Positions 4,559 to 21,250 of a stretch of 28,838 bases of DNA are shown here, piece after piece. Each line of letters opens with the position of its first letter. Within the stretch, counting starts at the first letter, position 1. A program made the translations under genes and the position numbers. Location of the stretch: IMG/VR virus record IMGVR_UViG_3300025276_000160, positions 1 to 28,838 of that record. One strand, written 5' to 3'. The DNA comes from a virus. The notes beneath the pieces were generated by a model. The model searched no databases and was not told the DNA's origin. It was given only the letters and a program-made list of their open reading frames with translations.

Positions 4559-5491
4559 TTAAGCTGTTGTTGTAAGTAACCAAACAATCTCGTTAGAATT
4601 GTAATAACCAACTCCAGCATTATAAACGATTTTTCCTCTTACGTTTCCAGTCAATAATCCGATAGCATCTTCATCCTCTAAAGCTACTGTATTAAAGTCT
4701 GAATTTAAACCTGTAGCAAATACAAGATTTTTCTTTTCAGCTGCTATAATAGTGTTATCTGGAAGACCTTGTATTTCTACTAAGTTATAACGTCCAAATT
4801 TAGCCATTTTTTCATCTGCTGTTCCGTTCCAAGCAATACCTTTAGATATTAAATGAAATGTATAAGCTTGAAAAACGTTAGAAGATACTAATACTTGTAC
4901 TTCTTTTCTTCTCAAAGCTACAGGAATAGCATTTAAAGCTGCTTTCAAGTGAGACTCAACGTTTGATTCAGTAGTTATTGCTCCTAATGCTGTAATACCA
5001 TTGTTAGCTTTAATTACTGCTCCATCTGCTGCGAATTGTACAGTAAATCCATCTCCGATTTCTCCATTTGTTGCGTTTAATCCAGTCCAAATTTCATCGT
5101 CTACTTTAGCAGCTTGACTTGATAACATTTCTAATTGGATAGCCTCTACAATATCAGCTGGAGCGTTTACGTTAGAAGCAGAAGCTCCCATAGAATCCTC
5201 TGACCAAGTTTGTCTAAAATCTTCTTTACATACAGTAAAGTCATTTTTTACTTTTTTAGGCTCGATTACTTTCTCGCTTAAAGTTATAGTTCCAGCTGGA
5301 GCGTGTCCACAAGAATAGTTTACAGTTCCATCAGCGTAAGCAATCTTACGAAGATTCATTTTGTAGTTTACATTTTCTGCTACCGTTAAAACTCCTAAAG
5401 AGAGAGTAGATCCTTCTTTAAAAGCTGCTCCGATAATTCCACCTGCTACTTTTCCAGCATAGTTTGATGATACGTTTGTTGTTGTTGCCAT
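4559..5491 (-). CDS. Major capsid protein, 310 aa
   Basis: Called as the major capsid subunit from its place directly behind the XkdF-like prohead protease (2-base gap) and its composition: Ala, Gly and Val rich, few Cys, 310 residues. An N-terminal arm (MATTTNVSSNYAGKVAGGIIGAAF) is followed by a beta-hairpin-like stretch, an E-loop-like KVIEPKKVKNDFTVCKEDF, a long helix (IVEAIQLEMLSSQAAKVDDEIWTGL) and a domain with YTFHLISKGIAWNG and YYNSNEIVWLLTTTA at the end. This is the layout expected of an HK97-fold coat protein. The hairpin at 4506-4538 lies after it. Family not confirmed by search. Confidence 0.8.
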   Translation of the reverse strand: MATTTNVSSNYAGKVAGGIIGAAFKEGSTLSLGVLTVAENVNYKMNLRKIAYADGTVNYSCGHAPAGTITLSEKVIEPKKVKNDFTVCKEDFRQTWSEDSMGASASNVNAPADIVEAIQLEMLSSQAAKVDDEIWTGLNATNGEIGDGFTVQFAADGAVIKANNGITALGAITTESNVESHLKAALNAIPVALRRKEVQVLVSSNVFQAYTFHLISKGIAWNGTADEKMAKFGRYNLVEIQGLPDNTIIAAEKKNLVFATGLNSDFNTVALEDEDAIGLLTGNVRGKIVYNAGVGYYNSNEIVWLLTTTA

Positions 5492-5493
5492 TT

Positions 5494-6579
5494 TTATTTG
5501 TTGTTTCTAATTGATTGAAGGATTCGACCCTTCTTTGTTAATTCTACTTGTTTAATTTCTGTCTTTACGCTCTTTGCAGCTGGTTGGTTTGATAAAGTTA
5601 CAACCTCAGCTTTTAAAGTTTCGTTTTCTTTTTTGAATTCTACTAAGTCTTTATTAATAGTTTCAAATTTAGAATCTACATCTTCGCTATACTTAATTAA
5701 TAAGCTTTTAATAGCTTGAGTAATTTCTTCAGTACTTGGAGCTGATGGTGTAGATAATTCCTCCTCTACAGGAGCTTCCTCAACGTTTACCGCTGTAACT
5801 ACTCCTTCAACTACAACTAACATTCCCATATCAGTAGGATACTCTCCGTCTGGTAATGCAATACGTTCTTCGCCTTCCGTTACGAATACAACCGTTCCAA
5901 CCTCTAAAATTTCGCCATCGTATTGGATAGTTAATTCTCCAGATTGTACGCTTCCTAATTTAACCTCTTTCACAATACCTAAACCAACGAGTACTTCGTT
6001 AACTTGGTCTTTGAAAGATTTTGTTTCTTCTGCCATTTTTATATTTGATTTTAAATTTACTTCTTTAAGATTAAATAAACCGTCTATTGAAAAACCGTTT
6101 ATTTCTCCGCTTAGAGCCTTCTTATATATAACATCATTCTCACACTTCATTTTAACAATCCAAGAACCCTCTACTATATCATTCTTATCTAAACCATAAG
6201 CGTTTGCTGTATCGTTCTTAGGGTCTTTAACAATCCAACTCTCAACAAAAGAAATTCCATCGATAGGAGCTTCGTGTTCTAACTTAGAATTTAATTGGAA
6301 TCCAGACTTAAAGAAATTATGAGCTGAAGCTTTTATGGTTTCTTTTGGAAAAGTAATATAAAACTCCTCTCCGTTTTGATTACGGTAAATTGGCTTATTA
6401 GGAATTAATACAACTCCTAATAAAGTACGCTCTATTTTGTCAACTTCAGCGAGTTTAATACTTTCCTCTTGTTTTTTTAATGCAATAAACATTGACTCCA
6501 TTGCAGGATCGTCTACTAATGAAATAGAATATACATTCTTTTTAGCAGCATCAAAAATTGCTTCGTAGGTTTTTATCAT
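5494..6579 (-). CDS. XkdF-like prohead protease fused to scaffold-like region, 361 aa
   Basis: Residues 15-175 match the XkdF-like putative serine protease pattern: YSISLVDDPAMESMFIAL, then GVVLIPNKPIYR, FPKETI, a LEHEAPIDGISFVESWIVKD segment with a candidate active-site His near 102, and GEINGFSIDGLF. Residues 180-360 are acidic, then a helical coiled coil (SKFETINKDLVEFKKENETLKAEVVTL) and a basic end, which look like a scaffold. The likely role is to guide shell assembly and then cleave scaffold and coat inside the prohead. It directly precedes the capsid gene. The start is the ATG at 6579, with AAACGTTT 8 bases upstream. Confidence 0.8.
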   Translation of the reverse strand: MIKTYEAIFDAAKKNVYSISLVDDPAMESMFIALKKQEESIKLAEVDKIERTLLGVVLIPNKPIYRNQNGEEFYITFPKETIKASAHNFFKSGFQLNSKLEHEAPIDGISFVESWIVKDPKNDTANAYGLDKNDIVEGSWIVKMKCENDVIYKKALSGEINGFSIDGLFNLKEVNLKSNIKMAEETKSFKDQVNEVLVGLGIVKEVKLGSVQSGELTIQYDGEILEVGTVVFVTEGEERIALPDGEYPTDMGMLVVVEGVVTAVNVEEAPVEEELSTPSAPSTEEITQAIKSLLIKYSEDVDSKFETINKDLVEFKKENETLKAEVVTLSNQPAAKSVKTEIKQVELTKKGRILQSIRNNK

Positions 6580-6584
6580 TATAG

Positions 6585-6596
6585 TTTAAACGTTTG
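6585..6596 (-). promoter_or_regulatory. AAACGTTT palindrome before the protease gene
   Basis: The AAACGTTT core at 6588-6595 ends 8 bases before the ATG of the prohead protease gene, in a 42-base gap that follows the tape measure gene. It has the same core and almost the same spacing as the sites before the 3567-3869 and 14108-14716 genes. Confidence 0.45.
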
Positions 6597-6621
6597 TATT
6601 CGGTTATTGTTACATTATTGT

Positions 6622-8445
6622 TTATAATCCGCTCTCGGTAATTATATTGTTGTCTAAGTTTTGAGCTGTAGTTATATCTCCACTAACTACATAAGCCTGT
6701 ACTGGTTCTTGATTGTTTAGGTTTATACTTTCGTTAATTTGATTTCCTTCAGTTCCTTCTACTAAATTAAAAGCTGGTGCTGTTGGAGTTGATCCTCCTC
6801 CTCCAACTCCTACATCTTCTCCTGGTATTCCACCCTGAAATTTTGCTGATGCTATTTTTGCAATAGTTGATACTCCCGTTGCAGATGCAAAAGCTAAAGA
6901 TGCTATACCTGCTGGATTTGGTACTGGACCTATAGCTATTGGAGATTGTGCTAATGAAGCTTGAATTGACTTTACAGCATCTATACCGGCAAGAGATAAA
7001 TTCATTACTTTCTGAACTGCAAAACTTGCCCTTGCTCTTTTCTCTTTACTCTTTTCGTCTTGTTTTCCTAAAGAATCTGCAATAGAAAAAACATCTGACG
7101 TTAAAGTTTGTACTGAAATAATACCTTCTTTTATTTTATCAAGTTTGTTTTTTTCGTTTTCTTCAGTATTTGAAGAGGTTTCATCGTTTGCCTTTTTAAT
7201 TATTGCTGCTATCTTATCTGCACTTTCTTGCTCGATAGCTTCTATAAGTTCTTTTTTAGCACCTAAAGCCTCAAGCTCTGCTATGTCAGCATCTGCTTTA
7301 CGTTCTATTTCTGATATTTCTCTTTCTAATCCTTTAAGAAAATAATAGTCTTCTACCTCTTGTATTTTAGCTAACCTTTTATTTTCATCATCAATATCTT
7401 TTTGGTCTTGTTTTTCTTTATCATCTTTCTTTTTTTGTTCACTTGCATCTTTAACTTCTTTTCTTTTCTTTTCAGCATCATCTTCTATTTTCTTTTGTTT
7501 CGCTGCCTCAGTTGTTGTAGCTTGTATAGATTTAATTCTTGCCTCCTCATCTCTGTCAGCCATTTCTTCTAATTTGGCAAACTTTGTTTTATTTGATGAA
7601 GATACTTTTTCTAAATTTATTACTGCAATTCGAGCCTCTGCCTCTTTGTCTAAATCTTCAGCCCCCGAATCAGATTGTTCGTTTTGTGCTATTATAGCAT
7701 CTAACTTTTTCTTTGCTGCTGCTAATTCTGATTCTGTTTGTTTAGTTTCTGCTATCCTAACTTCATCGATTGCCTTTTTCTTTTCTTCATAGGATGCGGT
7801 ACTACTTTCAATAGTTTCTTTTGCCTTAATTAAATCTCTATCCAATTCTGCTCTCGAAACGCTAAGCAATCTCATTGTATCAACTACTTGTTGTAAGTCT
7901 CTCTTTGCTTCTGCTGCTATTCTAAACTCAGCAGCTACCTCATCACCGAAACCCGATACCGCTTTCTTACCGGTTTCCATAGCACCCTTAAAATCTCCCG
8001 TGAAAAACTTAACTAAAGCTTCTCCGATTACAAGAACTCTATCTCTAACCACATCAATAGTTGCACTAATCCCCGCCATTACTTGGTCAAACGCTTCTGC
8101 TCCCGCTTTAGTTGACGTAAATGCTTTGTATAAAGACGTTAATGCAAGAGCAACCGCAGCGATTACAAGTCCAATAGGATTAGCTACAAGCAACCACATC
8201 TGTTTTATTAACGCACGTACGCCTCTCAACGCTCCACCAGTAGCCTTATTCATTCCTTCAAAAGCTGCTTGATTTCTTTGTGTTGATTTCTTTGCTTTGT
8301 CTTGAGCGTCTGTAGTTTTTTTAGTTGCTTTTTCTACATTTTTCTGAGAGGTTGTAGTTTCGTCTAAAGAATGATTTAAATTATCTATGTTTTTTACTGC
8401 ATCTTTAGTCTCAGCCTCTATTTTTATTACCTTTTTAATAGCCAT
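6622..8445 (-). CDS. Tail tape measure protein, 607 aa
   Basis: A long helical protein: residues 1-60 are charged coiled coil, about 75-115 hold a hydrophobic membrane-like segment (LLVANPIGLVIAAVALALTS), 190-430 is a very long Lys/Glu-rich coiled coil, and 480-540 is a second Ala/Ser-rich hydrophobic region (QSPIAIGPVPNPAGIASLAF), with a flexible Gly-rich tail. This arrangement is typical of tape measure proteins, which set tail length and enter the host envelope with DNA. Using the usual rule of about 0.15 nm per residue, 607 residues suggest a tail near 90 nm. It follows the tail fibre genes and precedes the head genes, an unusual place. Confidence 0.8.
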   Translation of the reverse strand: MAIKKVIKIEAETKDAVKNIDNLNHSLDETTTSQKNVEKATKKTTDAQDKAKKSTQRNQAAFEGMNKATGGALRGVRALIKQMWLLVANPIGLVIAAVALALTSLYKAFTSTKAGAEAFDQVMAGISATIDVVRDRVLVIGEALVKFFTGDFKGAMETGKKAVSGFGDEVAAEFRIAAEAKRDLQQVVDTMRLLSVSRAELDRDLIKAKETIESSTASYEEKKKAIDEVRIAETKQTESELAAAKKKLDAIIAQNEQSDSGAEDLDKEAEARIAVINLEKVSSSNKTKFAKLEEMADRDEEARIKSIQATTTEAAKQKKIEDDAEKKRKEVKDASEQKKKDDKEKQDQKDIDDENKRLAKIQEVEDYYFLKGLEREISEIERKADADIAELEALGAKKELIEAIEQESADKIAAIIKKANDETSSNTEENEKNKLDKIKEGIISVQTLTSDVFSIADSLGKQDEKSKEKRARASFAVQKVMNLSLAGIDAVKSIQASLAQSPIAIGPVPNPAGIASLAFASATGVSTIAKIASAKFQGGIPGEDVGVGGGGSTPTAPAFNLVEGTEGNQINESINLNNQEPVQAYVVSGDITTAQNLDNNIITESGL

Positions 8446-8576
8446 AATCTCTTTATTTTTCTATTAAACCCTTTCCAAGTACTAACCATTTCTCGTTTAC
8501 CTTTAGCTATCTCTGTATATTCTCCTGCTCCGTAATAGTCTCCGCTTTGTAGTATTTTAATTATCTCTGCTATCAT
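8427..8576 (-). CDS. Small basic protein before the tape measure, 49 aa
   Basis: A 49-residue frame starting MIAEIIKILQSGDYYGAGEY and ending in a basic stretch with KGFNRKIKRLWLLKR. Its ATG overlaps the stop of the preceding gene (ATGA) and its end overlaps the tape measure start by 19 bases. It fills the 127-base gap between these two genes. No family is recognised; being between tail genes it may be a small tail accessory or assembly factor. Confidence 0.55.
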   Translation of the reverse strand: MIAEIIKILQSGDYYGAGEYTEIAKGKREMVSTWKGFNRKIKRLWLLKR

Positions 8577-9160
8577 ATTGTACCGCTTGAAATTCTATGA
8601 ATACTTAACATCCTTGAGGTTATTGTTAACGTTCCTGTATCTGTTTTTAAAAATATTTGTCCTCCGTTTGTTTTAAAATCTGATAAAGTATAAAAAGGAA
8701 ATGCAACACTAACTTTGTAAGGAGTAGCTTTTAAGGTTGAAATAACTCTCTCAATAAATACATTAGTTGGAGCTAATCCTCCTCCAATATCTAACGAAAC
8801 ATCTAAACCATTTGGATTTCCTGTTTTACCAGTAATCTCAAAGTCAATACGCATAGTATAACCATCGCCAATAGAAATAGGAGTTATTTTATTATTTGTA
8901 GTATCCCATAATTCAGATATACCTCTAATCTCTAAAGGTAAATAAGAGCTATTAGACGCAGCTCCTCCTCCATCAATTACTAATTTTGAATCCGTTGAGG
9001 TTATAGTTTGAGCTGTTGCAGTTGATTGAGCATAGCTTCCCCATCCAGCAACTTTATAAAGTTCTACAAAATTATTGTTTGTTTTACCGAAAGCACTAAA
9101 TAGAGTTTCTCCCGTTCCGTCTCCTGCTATTGTTCCGTTATTAATTACTTGTTGTGCCAT
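8573..9160 (-). CDS. Tail fibre / appendage protein, 195 aa
   Basis: The N-terminus has the pattern INNGTIAGDGTGETLFSAFGKTNNNFVELY, the well-known GDGTG...AF.K.N.NF.ELY motif at the start of many tail appendage and fibre proteins. The rest (about 60-195) looks like a beta-sandwich with Gly/Thr-rich loops and alternating strands, as in receptor-binding or fibre-tip domains. The start overlaps the BACON-bearing tail gene by 20 bases. A role in host adhesion is likely; the receptor cannot be inferred. Confidence 0.6.
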   Translation of the reverse strand: MAQQVINNGTIAGDGTGETLFSAFGKTNNNFVELYKVAGWGSYAQSTATAQTITSTDSKLVIDGGGAASNSSYLPLEIRGISELWDTTNNKITPISIGDGYTMRIDFEITGKTGNPNGLDVSLDIGGGLAPTNVFIERVISTLKATPYKVSVAFPFYTLSDFKTNGGQIFLKTDTGTLTITSRMLSIHRISSGTI

Positions 9161-11573
9161 TGTTATCTGCTGTTATTATGTTTGAATCCGCTGTTATTAT
9201 ATTACTGTCTACTGTTAAAGTTGTAGGTTCTTGAATTAAAGTAACCTCTGGAACTAAAGAGCCATTTCCTAAGTTAACCGCCATTACTCTTTGAGTTGGT
9301 AAAGTATTCTCTAATATATTAAAAGTTAAATTATTTCCAGAACTTGATAAGGTCATCCAATCAGTACCAAATCCTAAGTCTACTTTTAAAACTGTTTTTC
9401 CTTCTAAATTGGTTACTTGTATTGTTTCTGTTTTTGCTTCAGAGCTTGTGTCTGTTATTGGTTTAGTAGGAACTGCACAATCCCATCTACCACAGATTCT
9501 ATTGCTTATTGATTTTTCAAAGTTATTTATTAAATTTAAAGTAGTTTCTCCCGTTAATATATTGTAGTTATATTTATCTATTCTATAATAGTTTCCTTTA
9601 ATTTCTAAAGTATCGTTTAATTGTAGTTTAGTAATTATATGTAAAGGTAAAACTGCTTTAAAAACAAAGTTTCTTTTCTTTGGATTAAATATAGATTCAA
9701 CATAACTCTTATAATAATTTGTATATAAATTACTCGTTAAAGCTTCGTAAGTATATGTACTAAAATCAGCCTCAAATAATAAAGCAAAATTAGGATTATT
9801 TAAACCGTAATGATGAAAAGGAGTATTTATATTGTATGTAATTTGAGATCGAGTTCCGTCATCTTCTATAAACCCAAGAGCGACATCACTTGCAGCTCCA
9901 ACAAGCAAGTTATAAAATATTAATGCGTTAGGATTAACAGGCTCACTCGATTCATCTATAATAGCTCCATATTGATAATTGGTTATATCGTTGTTAGCCA
10001 AATTAGGAAGTCTCTCGTAAACTATCTGCTCAAAAGGTAAAGTAAAATCTAAAGGTTTACCATCTAATATTTTACCATTAATGTCTTTTAAGGTTAGTTG
10101 GCTATCTCCGTATCCTCTATCATTATTGTTTTTAAATTGCATTGCAACAATAGTCTTAGGGTCTGAGTACTTTAAATTTATTCTATTTAATAAATCTCCT
10201 CTATTTACATCGTATTTCTCAAAGTCTATATACCTTGTAACGTCTCGTAAGATACCTTTAGAGTAATAAGAAGATAAAGAGTCAACGTAAAGAGTTCCGT
10301 CATCTTGAGGTATTAATACGAGTTTAAACATATTAAACAATCCTTTTAAAAAGTCTAATATATTTATCTTAGGTACTTCCTCCGAAACTATAAAATTACT
10401 TTCGATAGTTTGAATACTTGCTGTAGTTGTCGCTTGTGGAGGTAAACGTTGAGTAAAGCCTATTAATCTCGATTGATACAAAGTAGCTTGATATTCAAAT
10501 TCTTCAGATGTTTTTATTTCCCAATACGCATCTATAGTAAGTTGTTCCTCCGTTGTATGTATTACAAAATTAGTAACACTATCCCCAGACAATGGAGTTA
10601 TAGAGTGTTGATTTCCATTTATATATAAAATAACCTCATAATTAACGTTTAAAAACAAAGTTTCTGGAAAAATTTCTAATTTAAATATAACCCTTGTATA
10701 TACGTTATGATAAGGAAAAGTATAACTTCCTATATTAGCTGCGTTAATAAAATTTAAATCTCCTCCATCCCAATCTATAATTTGAGCATCTCCTCCAGGC
10801 TCTTTATTTTCGCTTGGATTAAGCCACATATATAACTCATTGAACTCGGTAGTACCGAAGAAATCTCTACTAAAGACTACAGGGTTCTCGTAATCGTCTG
10901 CGTTATATTTATTCTCTATGGCTTCTATTATCTTTAGTATTCTAATTGAAGGTCTTAAATCGTTCCAAACAACGCCAGTATCGTTTCCTCCTAAGAAAGA
11001 TATATTTCGAGTCTTTTGATCCGCATTATTAGGACTTGATGTATCTATATAATATTGTTTCTTTGCTAATAAATTATATACAATATCTCTATTGCTTATT
11101 GTATTGCCATTTAAATTTAAGGTTACGCCAGTAGTACCTAATCCTTGTTTTACTTTATCGCTATTATAAGAGTGATTAAAATATGATAAATCTAAATCCT
11201 TTAATTCATCTTTACCAATTGTATCTTTTAGGTTTACTAAATTGCCAAAGAAATTAATTGTATATGAATCTGGTTTGTTTTTTTTTACGTTAACCTTTGT
11301 TAATCTAAAACGTCCCATTTTAAATAGAATACCGTCTAAATGTATTTCTCCATCTACCTTAATCCTTGCATCAAAACTATTATCTATATCAGCGTCATAC
11401 CAATGCTTAAAAACTTTGTTATTACTTTTGGAAGCTGGGACTGTAAAAGTCTTTGTATAGTCTCCTGTATTTCTTGTAATATCAGATATATCTAAAACGC
11501 TTGAATTAATCTCTACAGATTCATCCTTGTTTTGGTCTAATTTACTTCCTTGTATATAGAGAGTTGTTATCAT
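9141..11573 (-). CDS. Large minor tail / baseplate protein with C-terminal BACON-like domain, 810 aa
   Basis: The N-terminal part (MITTLYIQGSKLDQNKDESVEINSS..., then TKTFTVPASKSNNKVFKHWYDADI) resembles distal-tail / tail-hub proteins of Bacteroidota siphophages. The middle has many aromatic strands and ends near LNDTLEIKGNYYRIDKYNYN with TLNLINNFE. From about 713 to 784 there is a BACON-like Ig fold: VTNLEGKTVLKVDLG, DWMTLSSSGNNLTFNI, N, QRVMAVNL, and EVTLIQEP. BACON domains are best known in Bacteroidota carbohydrate-active proteins and a crAssphage tail protein. The last 25 residues repeat DSNIITA. Likely located at the tail tip, with the BACON domain helping glycan contact. Confidence 0.65.
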   Translation of the reverse strand: MITTLYIQGSKLDQNKDESVEINSSVLDISDITRNTGDYTKTFTVPASKSNNKVFKHWYDADIDNSFDARIKVDGEIHLDGILFKMGRFRLTKVNVKKNKPDSYTINFFGNLVNLKDTIGKDELKDLDLSYFNHSYNSDKVKQGLGTTGVTLNLNGNTISNRDIVYNLLAKKQYYIDTSSPNNADQKTRNISFLGGNDTGVVWNDLRPSIRILKIIEAIENKYNADDYENPVVFSRDFFGTTEFNELYMWLNPSENKEPGGDAQIIDWDGGDLNFINAANIGSYTFPYHNVYTRVIFKLEIFPETLFLNVNYEVILYINGNQHSITPLSGDSVTNFVIHTTEEQLTIDAYWEIKTSEEFEYQATLYQSRLIGFTQRLPPQATTTASIQTIESNFIVSEEVPKINILDFLKGLFNMFKLVLIPQDDGTLYVDSLSSYYSKGILRDVTRYIDFEKYDVNRGDLLNRINLKYSDPKTIVAMQFKNNNDRGYGDSQLTLKDINGKILDGKPLDFTLPFEQIVYERLPNLANNDITNYQYGAIIDESSEPVNPNALIFYNLLVGAASDVALGFIEDDGTRSQITYNINTPFHHYGLNNPNFALLFEADFSTYTYEALTSNLYTNYYKSYVESIFNPKKRNFVFKAVLPLHIITKLQLNDTLEIKGNYYRIDKYNYNILTGETTLNLINNFEKSISNRICGRWDCAVPTKPITDTSSEAKTETIQVTNLEGKTVLKVDLGFGTDWMTLSSSGNNLTFNILENTLPTQRVMAVNLGNGSLVPEVTLIQEPTTLTVDSNIITADSNIITADNNGTTSN

Positions 11574-18680: not shown

Positions 18681-18835
18681 CTTTTTGGTCTTTTAATTTT
18701 AACTACTATTATATATATTACATGCTCATAAACAGCCATTGAAGTACTTACTACTTCTATATTCCAATCAAGCTCTAAATCGTTTAGTTGCTTTCTTACT
18801 TCCTCTATTTTTCCAGATAGGATTTTATGTTTCAT
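18677..18835 (-). CDS. Unidentified small protein, 52 aa
   Basis: A frame of 52 residues starting MKHKILSGKIEEVRKQLNDL, with a helix, then a strand-rich part (WNIEVVSTSMAVYEHVIYIIVVKIK) and a basic end. Its ATG overlaps the nuclease stop and its TGA overlaps the DnaA-like ATG (ATGA). It fills an otherwise empty 151-base gap. No family is recognised. Confidence 0.6.
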   Translation of the reverse strand: MKHKILSGKIEEVRKQLNDLELDWNIEVVSTSMAVYEHVIYIIVVKIKRPKR

Positions 18836-19323
18836 ATTTTATATTTTTCTTTTTTTGTTGTAAATCTTTTTAACTCTTCTATCTCAAGATCGCTTAATCT
18901 TGTATATGTTTTCATAGTATCTAAATGAAAGTTTACTCTCGTTCCTGAACTACCTTCTCTTTCAAAAGGAAACATTTTATCATCTTTTAAATACTCTTGG
19001 CTTAATATATCTAAACTATTACCATAAACGGTTTTAGTTGAGTAATCTACAAAGAACAAATAAACTGGTATATTTTTAATCCTTAAATAATCCTTATAAT
19101 GAGAAATAGTGATGCCCGTTTCTTTATACCTATTTAATCTTTCTTGTGTCTTTACCTCTATCACTATAGTTTGAGTTTTGTTATAACTAAATAGCATATC
19201 GAAATGATGAGCTTTATTTGTTATTGGTTTATATACTACTCCTCCTTTACTCTCTAAATAATTTTTTACTATTCTCTCTCCTATATCTCCTTTTTTTACT
19301 TCAGTTTTATCGTGCCAACCCAT
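18832..19323 (-). CDS. PD-(D/E)XK nuclease-like protein, 163 aa
   Basis: The nuclease core is visible: KGDIGERIVKNYLESKGG (Glu 16), HFDMLFSYN (Asp 42), TIVIEVKTQE (Glu 56, Lys 58). This is the E...D...ExK order of the PD-(D/E)XK superfamily, as in small junction resolvases and restriction-like enzymes. The DNA substrate is unknown; resolving recombination junctions before packaging would fit the replication context. The last third (KTYTRLSDLEIEELKRFTTKKE) is helical. It follows a 57-residue coiled-coil gene next to the glycosyltransferase, so a role linked to modified DNA is also possible. Confidence 0.65.
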   Translation of the reverse strand: MGWHDKTEVKKGDIGERIVKNYLESKGGVVYKPITNKAHHFDMLFSYNKTQTIVIEVKTQERLNRYKETGITISHYKDYLRIKNIPVYLFFVDYSTKTVYGNSLDILSQEYLKDDKMFPFEREGSSGTRVNFHLDTMKTYTRLSDLEIEELKRFTTKKEKYKI

Positions 19324-19324
19324 T

Positions 19325-19498
19325 TTAAAATAGTTTTAATTGTTCCTTTTCTCTTTTTTTAATATCAATATATTTAGTCCAAGCTTTATTATATTGATTT
19401 TTAAATTTCTTTTTATCCTCGAAGTATTTTGATTCTTGATCTCTATAAACCTCCATAGCCTTAATTATCTCATCTAATCTATTCTGTTCGTGTTTCAT
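19325..19498 (-). CDS. Coiled-coil protein, 57 aa
   Basis: A highly charged, wholly helical frame (MKHEQNRLDEIIKAMEVYRDQ..., ending REKEQLKLF) whose ATG lies inside the last codons of the glycosyltransferase gene (20-base overlap) and which ends one base before the nuclease start. It fills the gap between the two. No family is recognised. Confidence 0.55.
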   Translation of the reverse strand: MKHEQNRLDEIIKAMEVYRDQESKYFEDKKKFKNQYNKAWTKYIDIKKREKEQLKLF

Positions 19499-20330
19499 CT
19501 TCTATATTTATTAATTCCATTCCGTAATTATTCACGCCTTCTTTTATTGTTATTCCTTCTTTTCTAATTAAATTGTTTTTCTTAAAAGGCTTATAATTTA
19601 CTTGATGATGAAACCTTCCGAATTTATTAGTAATCTCTACCAAGTCAGGATGTTGTTCCTTTAAAGACTGAGCAAATTTAAGTCTATTGTCTCCGTCAAT
19701 ATAAACCTCGTCTGTATTACCTCCTTTTAAAGTCATTGTTGTTGCTTTTCCTTGTAAGAAGGCTGAAAACAATATAGTCCTATAATCGTCTTTTAAAGCT
19801 CTTAAACAGATATCTGTATCTTCGTTATATTTTCCTCTCCATCTATATGGTAAATTGTTATTTATAAGAGTACAAGAATAGATCCTTGTATTTATTAAAT
19901 ACGGTTTTATAGAACCGCTCTTTCTACTTGCAAACATAAAGTAATTAGGACCACTAAAAGCTACCTTTTTAAATCTATCCGTAAAGTCTTCCATACATTT
20001 AAATATAGTTCCGTCTCCAACGGGTATCTTCATATTCTTATTAAGCCTAAAGAATAGATTAATATTATCGTCCATTAACCAATGTCTTTTATGACCTTCC
20101 AATATTGAATGCTCCCAACACCAATTCCTTGCTGGTATACTTCCCTGTCCTAAGTTAGAGAAAGGTAAAACTAATATCTTATCGGGACTAATTACTGAGG
20201 CATAATTATCATACTCTTGAGGTTCTATAACTATCTTGTAAGGGAGTTTCATATACTCTAAGGTTTTACTTGTTAACCTTGATTCGTGTCTACCTTTAGA
20301 GATTATATAAATAGGATATTTAAGAGTCAT
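19479..20330 (-). CDS. TET-associated glycosyltransferase (TAGT)-like, DNA hypermodification
   Basis: The whole 283-residue protein follows the TAGT family that occurs with TET/JBP-type oxygenases in phages: YPIYIISKGRHESRLTSKTLEYM at the start, then PFSNLGQGSIPARNWCWEHS, HWLMDDNINLFFRLN (DDN about 87-89, like the metal-binding DxD), NTRIYSCTLI, PYRWRGKYNEDTDICLRALKD (169-173), TMTLKGGNTDE (203-208) and FGRFHHQVNYKPF. Family members are predicted to glycosylate hydroxymethyl-pyrimidines in DNA. No base hydroxylase or TET-like gene is seen in this window; it may be elsewhere in the genome, or host nucleotides may be used. The neighbouring FkbM gene could modify the sugar. The family is recalled from Iyer and colleagues' 2013 work. 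Confidence 0.8.
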   Translation of the reverse strand: MTLKYPIYIISKGRHESRLTSKTLEYMKLPYKIVIEPQEYDNYASVISPDKILVLPFSNLGQGSIPARNWCWEHSILEGHKRHWLMDDNINLFFRLNKNMKIPVGDGTIFKCMEDFTDRFKKVAFSGPNYFMFASRKSGSIKPYLINTRIYSCTLINNNLPYRWRGKYNEDTDICLRALKDDYRTILFSAFLQGKATTMTLKGGNTDEVYIDGDNRLKFAQSLKEQHPDLVEITNKFGRFHHQVNYKPFKKNNLIRKEGITIKEGVNNYGMELINIEDETRTE

Positions 20331-20334
20331 AATA

Positions 20335-20988
20335 TTATTTTTTAATCCAGCTACCAGTTAAATTCCATCCGCTTTTAAACGTTGGTCTAATTACATTTTC
20401 AAAACCTGCAGCTTCAATTTTATTCATTATATTAATAGCTCGTTTTTTCCAATTATCACCAACTGGATGAAATTCTAATATAATTGCACGCAAATTAGGT
20501 TGTAATATATCAAAATTATATTCAGCACCTTCTACATCTATTTTTACAATAGTAGCATCTTGCAATGCCTTTTCATACTTTATAGCTCCTATTTCGATAC
20601 TACCAACTTTGCCACGTTCTTTTACAATACTATTAGTTACACCTATTCCTTTTGAAATAAATAAATTAATACTTTCACTATCATCTCCAACAACTGCTGC
20701 ATTATATATTTTAGATTTATCCTTATTCTCTAAAGAATCAATATTCATTTTTAATACATCAAAAGTTTGTGGAGTAGGTTCGTAGGATAAAACTTTTTTA
20801 GCACCGCAATTTAAAGCATAAATAGAATACTCTCCAACGTAAGCACCTATGTCTGCGACTATATCTGTTTCTAATATTTTAATACTTTTGCATTCTCTCA
20901 TATTATTAACAAAAGGCTTATCTGATTTTTCTGTTTTAAAAGCGAAATGACCGCCAGTAAATCCGTTTTTTACATAAATTGGTTTCAT
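20335..20988 (-). CDS. FkbM-family methyltransferase, 217 aa
   Basis: A SAM-dependent methyltransferase of the FkbM type: motif I IVADIGAYVGEYSIYAL, then KVLSYEPTPQTFDVLKMNI, IVKIDVEGAEYNFDIL (KxDVEGAE is the family hallmark) and RAIILEFHP. FkbM enzymes typically O-methylate sugars or small molecules. Its gene is 4 bases from the TAGT-like glycosyltransferase and 4 bases after the 85-residue gene, suggesting one cassette. Methylation of a sugar put on phage DNA is a reasonable hypothesis; action on cell-surface glycans or lipids is an alternative. No sign of truncation. Confidence 0.75.
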   Translation of the reverse strand: MKPIYVKNGFTGGHFAFKTEKSDKPFVNNMRECKSIKILETDIVADIGAYVGEYSIYALNCGAKKVLSYEPTPQTFDVLKMNIDSLENKDKSKIYNAAVVGDDSESINLFISKGIGVTNSIVKERGKVGSIEIGAIKYEKALQDATIVKIDVEGAEYNFDILQPNLRAIILEFHPVGDNWKKRAINIMNKIEAAGFENVIRPTFKSGWNLTGSWIKK

Positions 20989-20992
20989 AATA

Positions 20993-21250
20993 TTATTTTA
21001 TAAGTTTTTTATTTATATATCTTTTATCCATATATCTATCTATCTCGACTTGAGGATACCAAACGCTTTGAGTTTTTGGCGTTAGAGGTTGGTTTATTAA
21101 TTTAGCAAAGTCTTTATAATCATTGTAATTCTTAAAGCTTACTATTAATTGTTTTATAGGAGATTTATCTTCTTGAATAAACTCTGGCATATCTTTCCAC
21201 TCCTTTTCTATTTCGTTTTCAAATTCTGGAAATAAACTATCTTGACTCAT
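20993..21250 (-). CDS. Small phage protein with MPEF and SVWYP motifs, 85 aa
   Basis: It contains EWKDMPEFIQED at about residues 17-28 and PLTPKTQSVWYPQ about 55-67, a pair recalled from a small phage protein often coded next to ParB-like or DNA-modification genes (not checked). The middle (QLIVSFKNYNDYKDFAKLIN) looks like a compact alpha/beta fold. Starts with the ATGA overlap and precedes FkbM by 4 bases. Function unknown, but its position supports a link to the modification group. Confidence 0.6.
   Translation of the reverse strand: MSQDSLFPEFENEIEKEWKDMPEFIQEDKSPIKQLIVSFKNYNDYKDFAKLINQPLTPKTQSVWYPQVEIDRYMDKRYINKKLIK

Follow-up and report, generated by a model that had tools for sequence, protein, structure and literature searches.

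Glycosyltransferases of the TAGT family (Pfam PF20691) include the phage T6 enzyme by which glucosylated hydroxymethylcytosine in DNA receives a further glucose (PMC13216743), an example of a phage glycosyltransferase acting on DNA (PMC13216743, PMC13390438). In 288 of 753 phage genomes counted in a 2026 paper, TAGT occurs in the absence of both classical DNA glucosyltransferases; according to that paper, these genomes may code for new transferases (PMC13216743). The T6 gene adjoins a thymidylate-synthase-type gene, in the position of the hydroxymethylase, and lacks the small WYP domain described below. The locus analysed here shares the Pfam family with T6, but its TAGT is accompanied by a WYP domain and an FkbM-family methyltransferase, with no thymidylate-synthase-type gene in view. 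BLASTP between the two TAGTs yielded a best E-value of 0.63 over 12 residues, i.e. no detectable similarity, and a WYP-TAGT profile did not match the T6 protein at an E-value of 10.

Shewanella phage Thanatos has a pentose-modified cytosine, which likewise places a sugar on a DNA base and gives restriction resistance (PMC12838424). The enzymes involved there are TH1_060 and TH1_063, together with a hydroxymethyltransferase-like gene; the paper does not mention TAGT and is not known to describe a methylated sugar (PMC12838424). No paper that links FkbM or methylated sugars to the modification of phage DNA came up in a literature search covering works other than Iyer (2013) and Burke (2021), which deal with TAGT and phage TET.

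A further comparison is offered by thymidine hypermodification clusters, which combine a thymidylate synthase homologue with a 5-hmdU DNA kinase. In four viral contigs (L253, positions 5087-9319, L254, L255 and L259), a separate group of FkbM enzymes, 28-32% identical to the one studied here, shares its cluster with a thymidylate synthase homologue, a GT-B-type glycosyltransferase and a protein with the helical domain of 5-hmdU DNA kinases. Judged by gene content, these clusters lend independent support to a role of FkbM enzymes in DNA hypermodification. The TAGT loci differ from them: BLAST detected no kinase homologue there, and a thymidylate synthase was found in none of 45 TAGT records.

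The locus and its three genes

The window, i.e. the whole stretch of 28,838 bases (28.8 kb) analysed, is a virus record and probably a fragment. It encodes a terminase, a portal protein, a holin, an endolysin, a single-strand-binding protein and a nuclease. Three consecutive open reading frames on the minus strand, transcribed in the order 20993-21250, 20335-20988 and 19479-20330, make up the locus:

20993..21250, minus strand: WYP domain ORF, 85 aa, small TAGT-partner domain (W..MPEF ... KT.S.WYP), assigned from family context with TAGT
20985..20997, minus strand: 13-bp repeat AATAATATTATGA, copy 1, at the WYP/FkbM joint from the WYP stop to the FkbM start, read from the sequence
20335..20988, minus strand: FkbM-family SAM-dependent methyltransferase, 217 aa, putative accessory cassette between WYP and TAGT (PF05050, TIGR01444, AlphaFold2 model)
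20327..20339, minus strand: 13-bp repeat AATAATATTATGA, copy 2, at the FkbM/TAGT joint from the FkbM stop to the TAGT start, read from the sequence
19479..20330, minus strand: TAGT-family glycosyltransferase, 283 aa, predicted GT-A fold (PF20691, PHROG 842, GT-A matches of the homologous L159 model)

The TAGT matches PF20691 with an E-value of 1.8e-40 and 139.5 bits (curated cut-off 27.5) and PHROG 842 with an E-value of 2.7e-39. The methyltransferase exceeds the cut-offs of PF05050 (35.4 bits; curated cut-off 22.7) and of NCBIfam TIGR01444 (60 bits; cut-off 37.7). A sequence-only reading had described an intact TAGT-family ORF next to an FkbM enzyme with the KxDVEGAE hallmark, four bases apart. 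All motifs that it quoted were found, KIDVEGAE is complete, and the two genes are separated by exactly four bases (20331-20334). Both members of the proposed pair are thus real, but the WYP ORF, situated within the same range, had been passed over. The reported lack of a base hydroxylase or TET also held: thymidylate synthase, TET and ParB gave no match among the scanned window proteins, a set that does not take in every small ORF of a record that is probably a fragment. Directly downstream of the TAGT lies a nuclease-like gene (18832-19323) with weak, below-cut-off matches to DUF4365/PD-(D/E)XK; it is 96% identical in the relatives L002 and L003 and 28% in L012.

The WYP domain as constant partner of TAGT

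The name WYP is given here after a conserved motif. In nearly all of 80 IMG/VR loci retrieved with TAGT, a relative of the window ORF neighbours TAGT or forms part of the same protein. After dereplication of all loci at 90% TAGT identity, 147 of the 155 clusters have a WYP domain, which lies upstream of TAGT in 118, downstream in 15 and within the same protein in 14. The reverse search, with WYP as query, gave 74 loci; in 72 of them a TAGT lies no more than 4 kb away, and of the remaining two, one breaks off at the WYP gene. WYP is a near-obligate partner of the TAGT subfamily found in the window. FkbM had been considered as the conserved TAGT partner; this candidate was dropped, since WYP holds that place in the 80 loci.

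The domain may form an ORF of its own, make up the C-terminal end of a ParB-like protein, or precede TAGT within one protein; the last arrangement is also seen in cultured phages, namely Tenacibaculum phage PTm1, Aeromonas phages 65 and Aeh1, and Vibrio phage 1.076.O. WYP-TAGT is present in Vibrio phage 1.124.O as well. The window WYP ORF reached the cut-off of no Pfam family and matched no PHROG, and a PDB sequence search with WYP gave no significant match. In the model of the WYP-TAGT homologue L159, the WYP part is modelled with only moderate confidence (pLDDT about 58-87 by block).

Structural models

The GT-A fold was modelled on L159 (387 aa), in whose alignment the window TAGT is a row and not the modelled protein. 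The model aligns with GalNAc-T2 over 232 residues (Z 14.7, rmsd 4.3), and its top Foldseek matches are GT-A-type enzymes; as modelled, the TAGT part of L159 shows a GT-A fold. The AlphaFold2 model of the window FkbM (pLDDT 91.8) has a class I methyltransferase fold. Its structural neighbours include the cobalamin methyltransferase CbiT and the tRNA methyltransferase Trm5 (Z about 16), so the predicted fold does not identify the substrate. A solved FkbM structure (2py6) is a weak sequence match and does not stand near the top of the structural matches listed, which excludes nothing.

DNA as the likely target

Fusions in relatives indicate where the module may act. Locus L104 contains a single ORF of 1091 aa (5450-8725) that combines WYP, TAGT and a DNA polymerase A with exonuclease and polymerase. 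The ParB-like proteins with C-terminal WYP reach the PF02195 cut-off in two cases and stay below it in the others. In L118 (5560-7296) and L034 (9758-11269), the ORF that encodes WYP-TAGT continues into a UDG-like domain, which remains below the Pfam cut-off. These fusions of WYP-TAGT, or of WYP by itself, point to DNA as the likely target. In the window phage, which has no such fusion, this would hold by homology.

Alternatively, the target of TAGT and FkbM might be a surface glycan or a protein, either of the virion or of the host. Protein glycosyltransferases are among the matches of the TAGT fold, and FkbM enzymes are commonly tied to polysaccharides and natural products. Such targets are distinctly unlikely in view of the DNA polymerase A and ParB-like fusions of relatives and of the frequent location of TAGT near terminase or replication genes. 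PF20691, moreover, takes in the DNA glucosyltransferase of T6 (PMC13216743).

FkbM in the joint between WYP and TAGT

The nearest relatives, L002 and L003, share 90-95% DNA identity with the window in aligned blocks. In both, WYP lies directly beside TAGT without FkbM, and the alignment blocks meet at the window's FkbM. Two copies of AATAATATTATGA flank the FkbM gene in the window, compared with a single copy at the WYP/TAGT joint of L002. Since the nearest relative has the same joint without it, FkbM appears to be an accessory, dispensable cassette, and is not essential. Insertion in the lineage of the window and loss in that of L002 both fit and cannot be told apart.

Other genes occupy the same position. 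TAGT paralogues lie between WYP and TAGT in six clusters, FkbM in eight (several of which were fetched by FkbM itself), a Methyltransf_23-type SAM methyltransferase in four clusters as well as in locus L188, and SDR sugar-nucleotide-type enzymes in two. The SDRs reached no NCBIfam equivalog cut-off, so that no specific reaction can be assigned to them. Two further genes were each seen once: one weakly matches a DXD glycosyltransferase family, and the other, which has no Pfam match, carries a TNPPYS motif (NPPY methyltransferase-like).

Recurrence of the FkbM-TAGT pairing

A three-sequence FkbM profile detected FkbM near TAGT in several unrelated phages. The order is WYP, methyltransferase, FkbM and TAGT with overlapping genes in L154, and a polymerase-like gene, FkbM, TAGT, WYP, SDR and dehydrogenase in L164. 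In L159 and L118, FkbM is followed by a WYP-TAGT fusion. A viral scan with the single window FkbM sequence yielded no match; an alignment of seven FkbM sequences as query recovered the clade and 80 viral loci in total. Identities among these loci leave a gap, with 20 at 39% or more and 60 at 32% or less. The TAGT-linked clade, which stems from phage contigs, is thereby set apart from the FkbM family at large (TIGR01444/PF05050), with which the window enzyme shares the sequence family, KIDVEGAE and the class I SAM fold; it also differs in being tied to TAGT. The SAM-binding motif and KxDVEGAE are kept across alignments of the clade.

TAGT is encoded in 16 of the 20 clade records, mostly adjacent to FkbM and once fused to it, i.e. 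in a single ORF of 577 aa in L248. TAGT or WYP is found within 6 kb in 13 of the 20; a fourteenth record (L238) has a divergent TAGT two genes off, and L247 and L250 carry it elsewhere. Three of the four records without TAGT are contigs that end in FkbM; the fourth is L245 (66 kb). The more distant viral FkbMs had neither TAGT nor WYP in the flanks of 57 loci, and TAGT was absent from all 30 whole records used as controls. Repeated pairing, proposed by the sequence-only reading as a check on its idea, is therefore borne out (16/20 versus 0/30). In the FkbM tree, a single clade (support 100/100) contains every TAGT-linked member. Mapping FkbM onto the TAGT tree requires 11 changes, and well supported branches force at least seven of them. 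The trees suggest that one methyltransferase clade joined, or was lost from, many TAGT lineages. FkbM is nevertheless uncommon: it accompanies about 7 of 113 clusters from TAGT-based searches, and counts that take in loci fetched by FkbM are biased upward.

The enzyme might also be unrelated cargo that came to lie in the joint by chance, as its absence from the nearest relative and the 13-bp repeat AATAATATTATGA on both sides would allow. Chance is very hard to reconcile with a single FkbM clade that is repeatedly joined to TAGT, once by fusion, while control records lack TAGT. The joint otherwise holds, TAGT paralogues aside, another methyltransferase, SDRs and the glycosyltransferase-like and NPPY methyltransferase-like single cases.

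Acceptor base

A thymidylate-synthase-type hydroxymethylase was detected in none of 45 TAGT records, many of them fragments, with lengths up to 334 kb (including 334, 199 and 178 kb). The lack of an acceptor enzyme, noted for the window by the earlier reading, may extend to TAGT records in general. Among cultured phages, the thymidylate synthase search was positive for T6, Aeh1, PTm1 and Aeromonas 65 and negative for two 48-kb Vibrio phages; the homologues of the three large WYP-TAGT phages may be ordinary thymidylate synthases or hydroxymethylases. Tet_JBP (PF12851) matched none of the 45 TAGT records, and no control genome gave a match either. In a comparison of 20 genomes, WYP-TAGT was the only common family (19 of 20), the next one being present in six. 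It follows from this blastp clustering of partial genomes that these phages probably have no common enzyme making the acceptor. A search of bacterial genomes with a DNA pattern for GIGVTNSIVK gave no match and no cultured host.

Proposed mechanism

The pair is real and recurrent, and most likely serves to glycosylate and methylate phage DNA, with WYP-TAGT as the core of the system. WYP and TAGT would form one glycosyltransferase module, and DNA glycosylation is predicted to be followed by O-methylation of the sugar; the explanation as a whole is given a probability of about 0.6. The module would glycosylate the DNA of the phage itself while it is being replicated or afterwards, and WYP would probably serve as targeting or partner domain. 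FkbM would act as a tailoring enzyme, catalyzing the SAM-dependent O-methylation of a sugar hydroxyl group, either once the sugar has been transferred or beforehand on the sugar nucleotide. The likely benefit would be a DNA shielded from nucleases or glycosylases for which the plain sugar is no obstacle or serves as a recognition mark. That the sugar accepts the methyl group, and that the modification protects, are predictions. Of the methylated-sugar DNA modification suggested originally, the recurrent pairing is thus confirmed and the DNA target is supported indirectly by the fusions of relatives, while methylation of the sugar is predicted. In an unlikely variant, WYP-TAGT would glycosylate a canonical base directly, without hydroxymethylase or TET, before FkbM O-methylates the sugar; the resulting base with its methylated sugar would then arise by a previously undescribed pathway.

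A different role would be the methylation of a base or another acceptor group instead of the sugar, by which FkbM prepares or caps the acceptor of TAGT. Such a partner might supply the acceptor-making enzyme that these phages do not have in common, and the FkbM fold resembles nucleic-acid methyltransferases such as Trm5. A general acceptor enzyme is not to be expected in so few TAGT modules (about 7 of 113 clusters), L002 possesses TAGT without FkbM, and the D/NPPY motif of amino-methyltransferases is missing from FkbM, which makes this role rather improbable.

TAGTs of the kind that stands without the classical DNA glucosyltransferases now have a constant partner in WYP, tailoring enzymes in one joint and fusions to replication proteins. 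DNA carrying O-methylated sugars would represent a new class of base modification. It would probably be a counter-move against enzymes removing or cutting glycosylated DNA, i.e. a still undescribed methylated-sugar coating that hides phage DNA from bacterial defences.

Possible sugar-donor genes and other neighbours

Individual loci contain candidate genes for sugar-nucleotide supply beside TAGT. L164 (7117-8927) has an SDR and a nucleotide-sugar dehydrogenase, both identified by Pfam, and L411 (3917-5761) has cupin, cytidylyltransferase-like and dehydrogenase-like genes recognised by eye. These sugar-nucleotide-type genes hint at phage-supplied sugar donors. Radical SAM/SPASM genes were observed beside FkbM in L247 (7009-8358), by sequence motif only, and beside WYP-TAGT in L109 (2586-3806), by Pfam.
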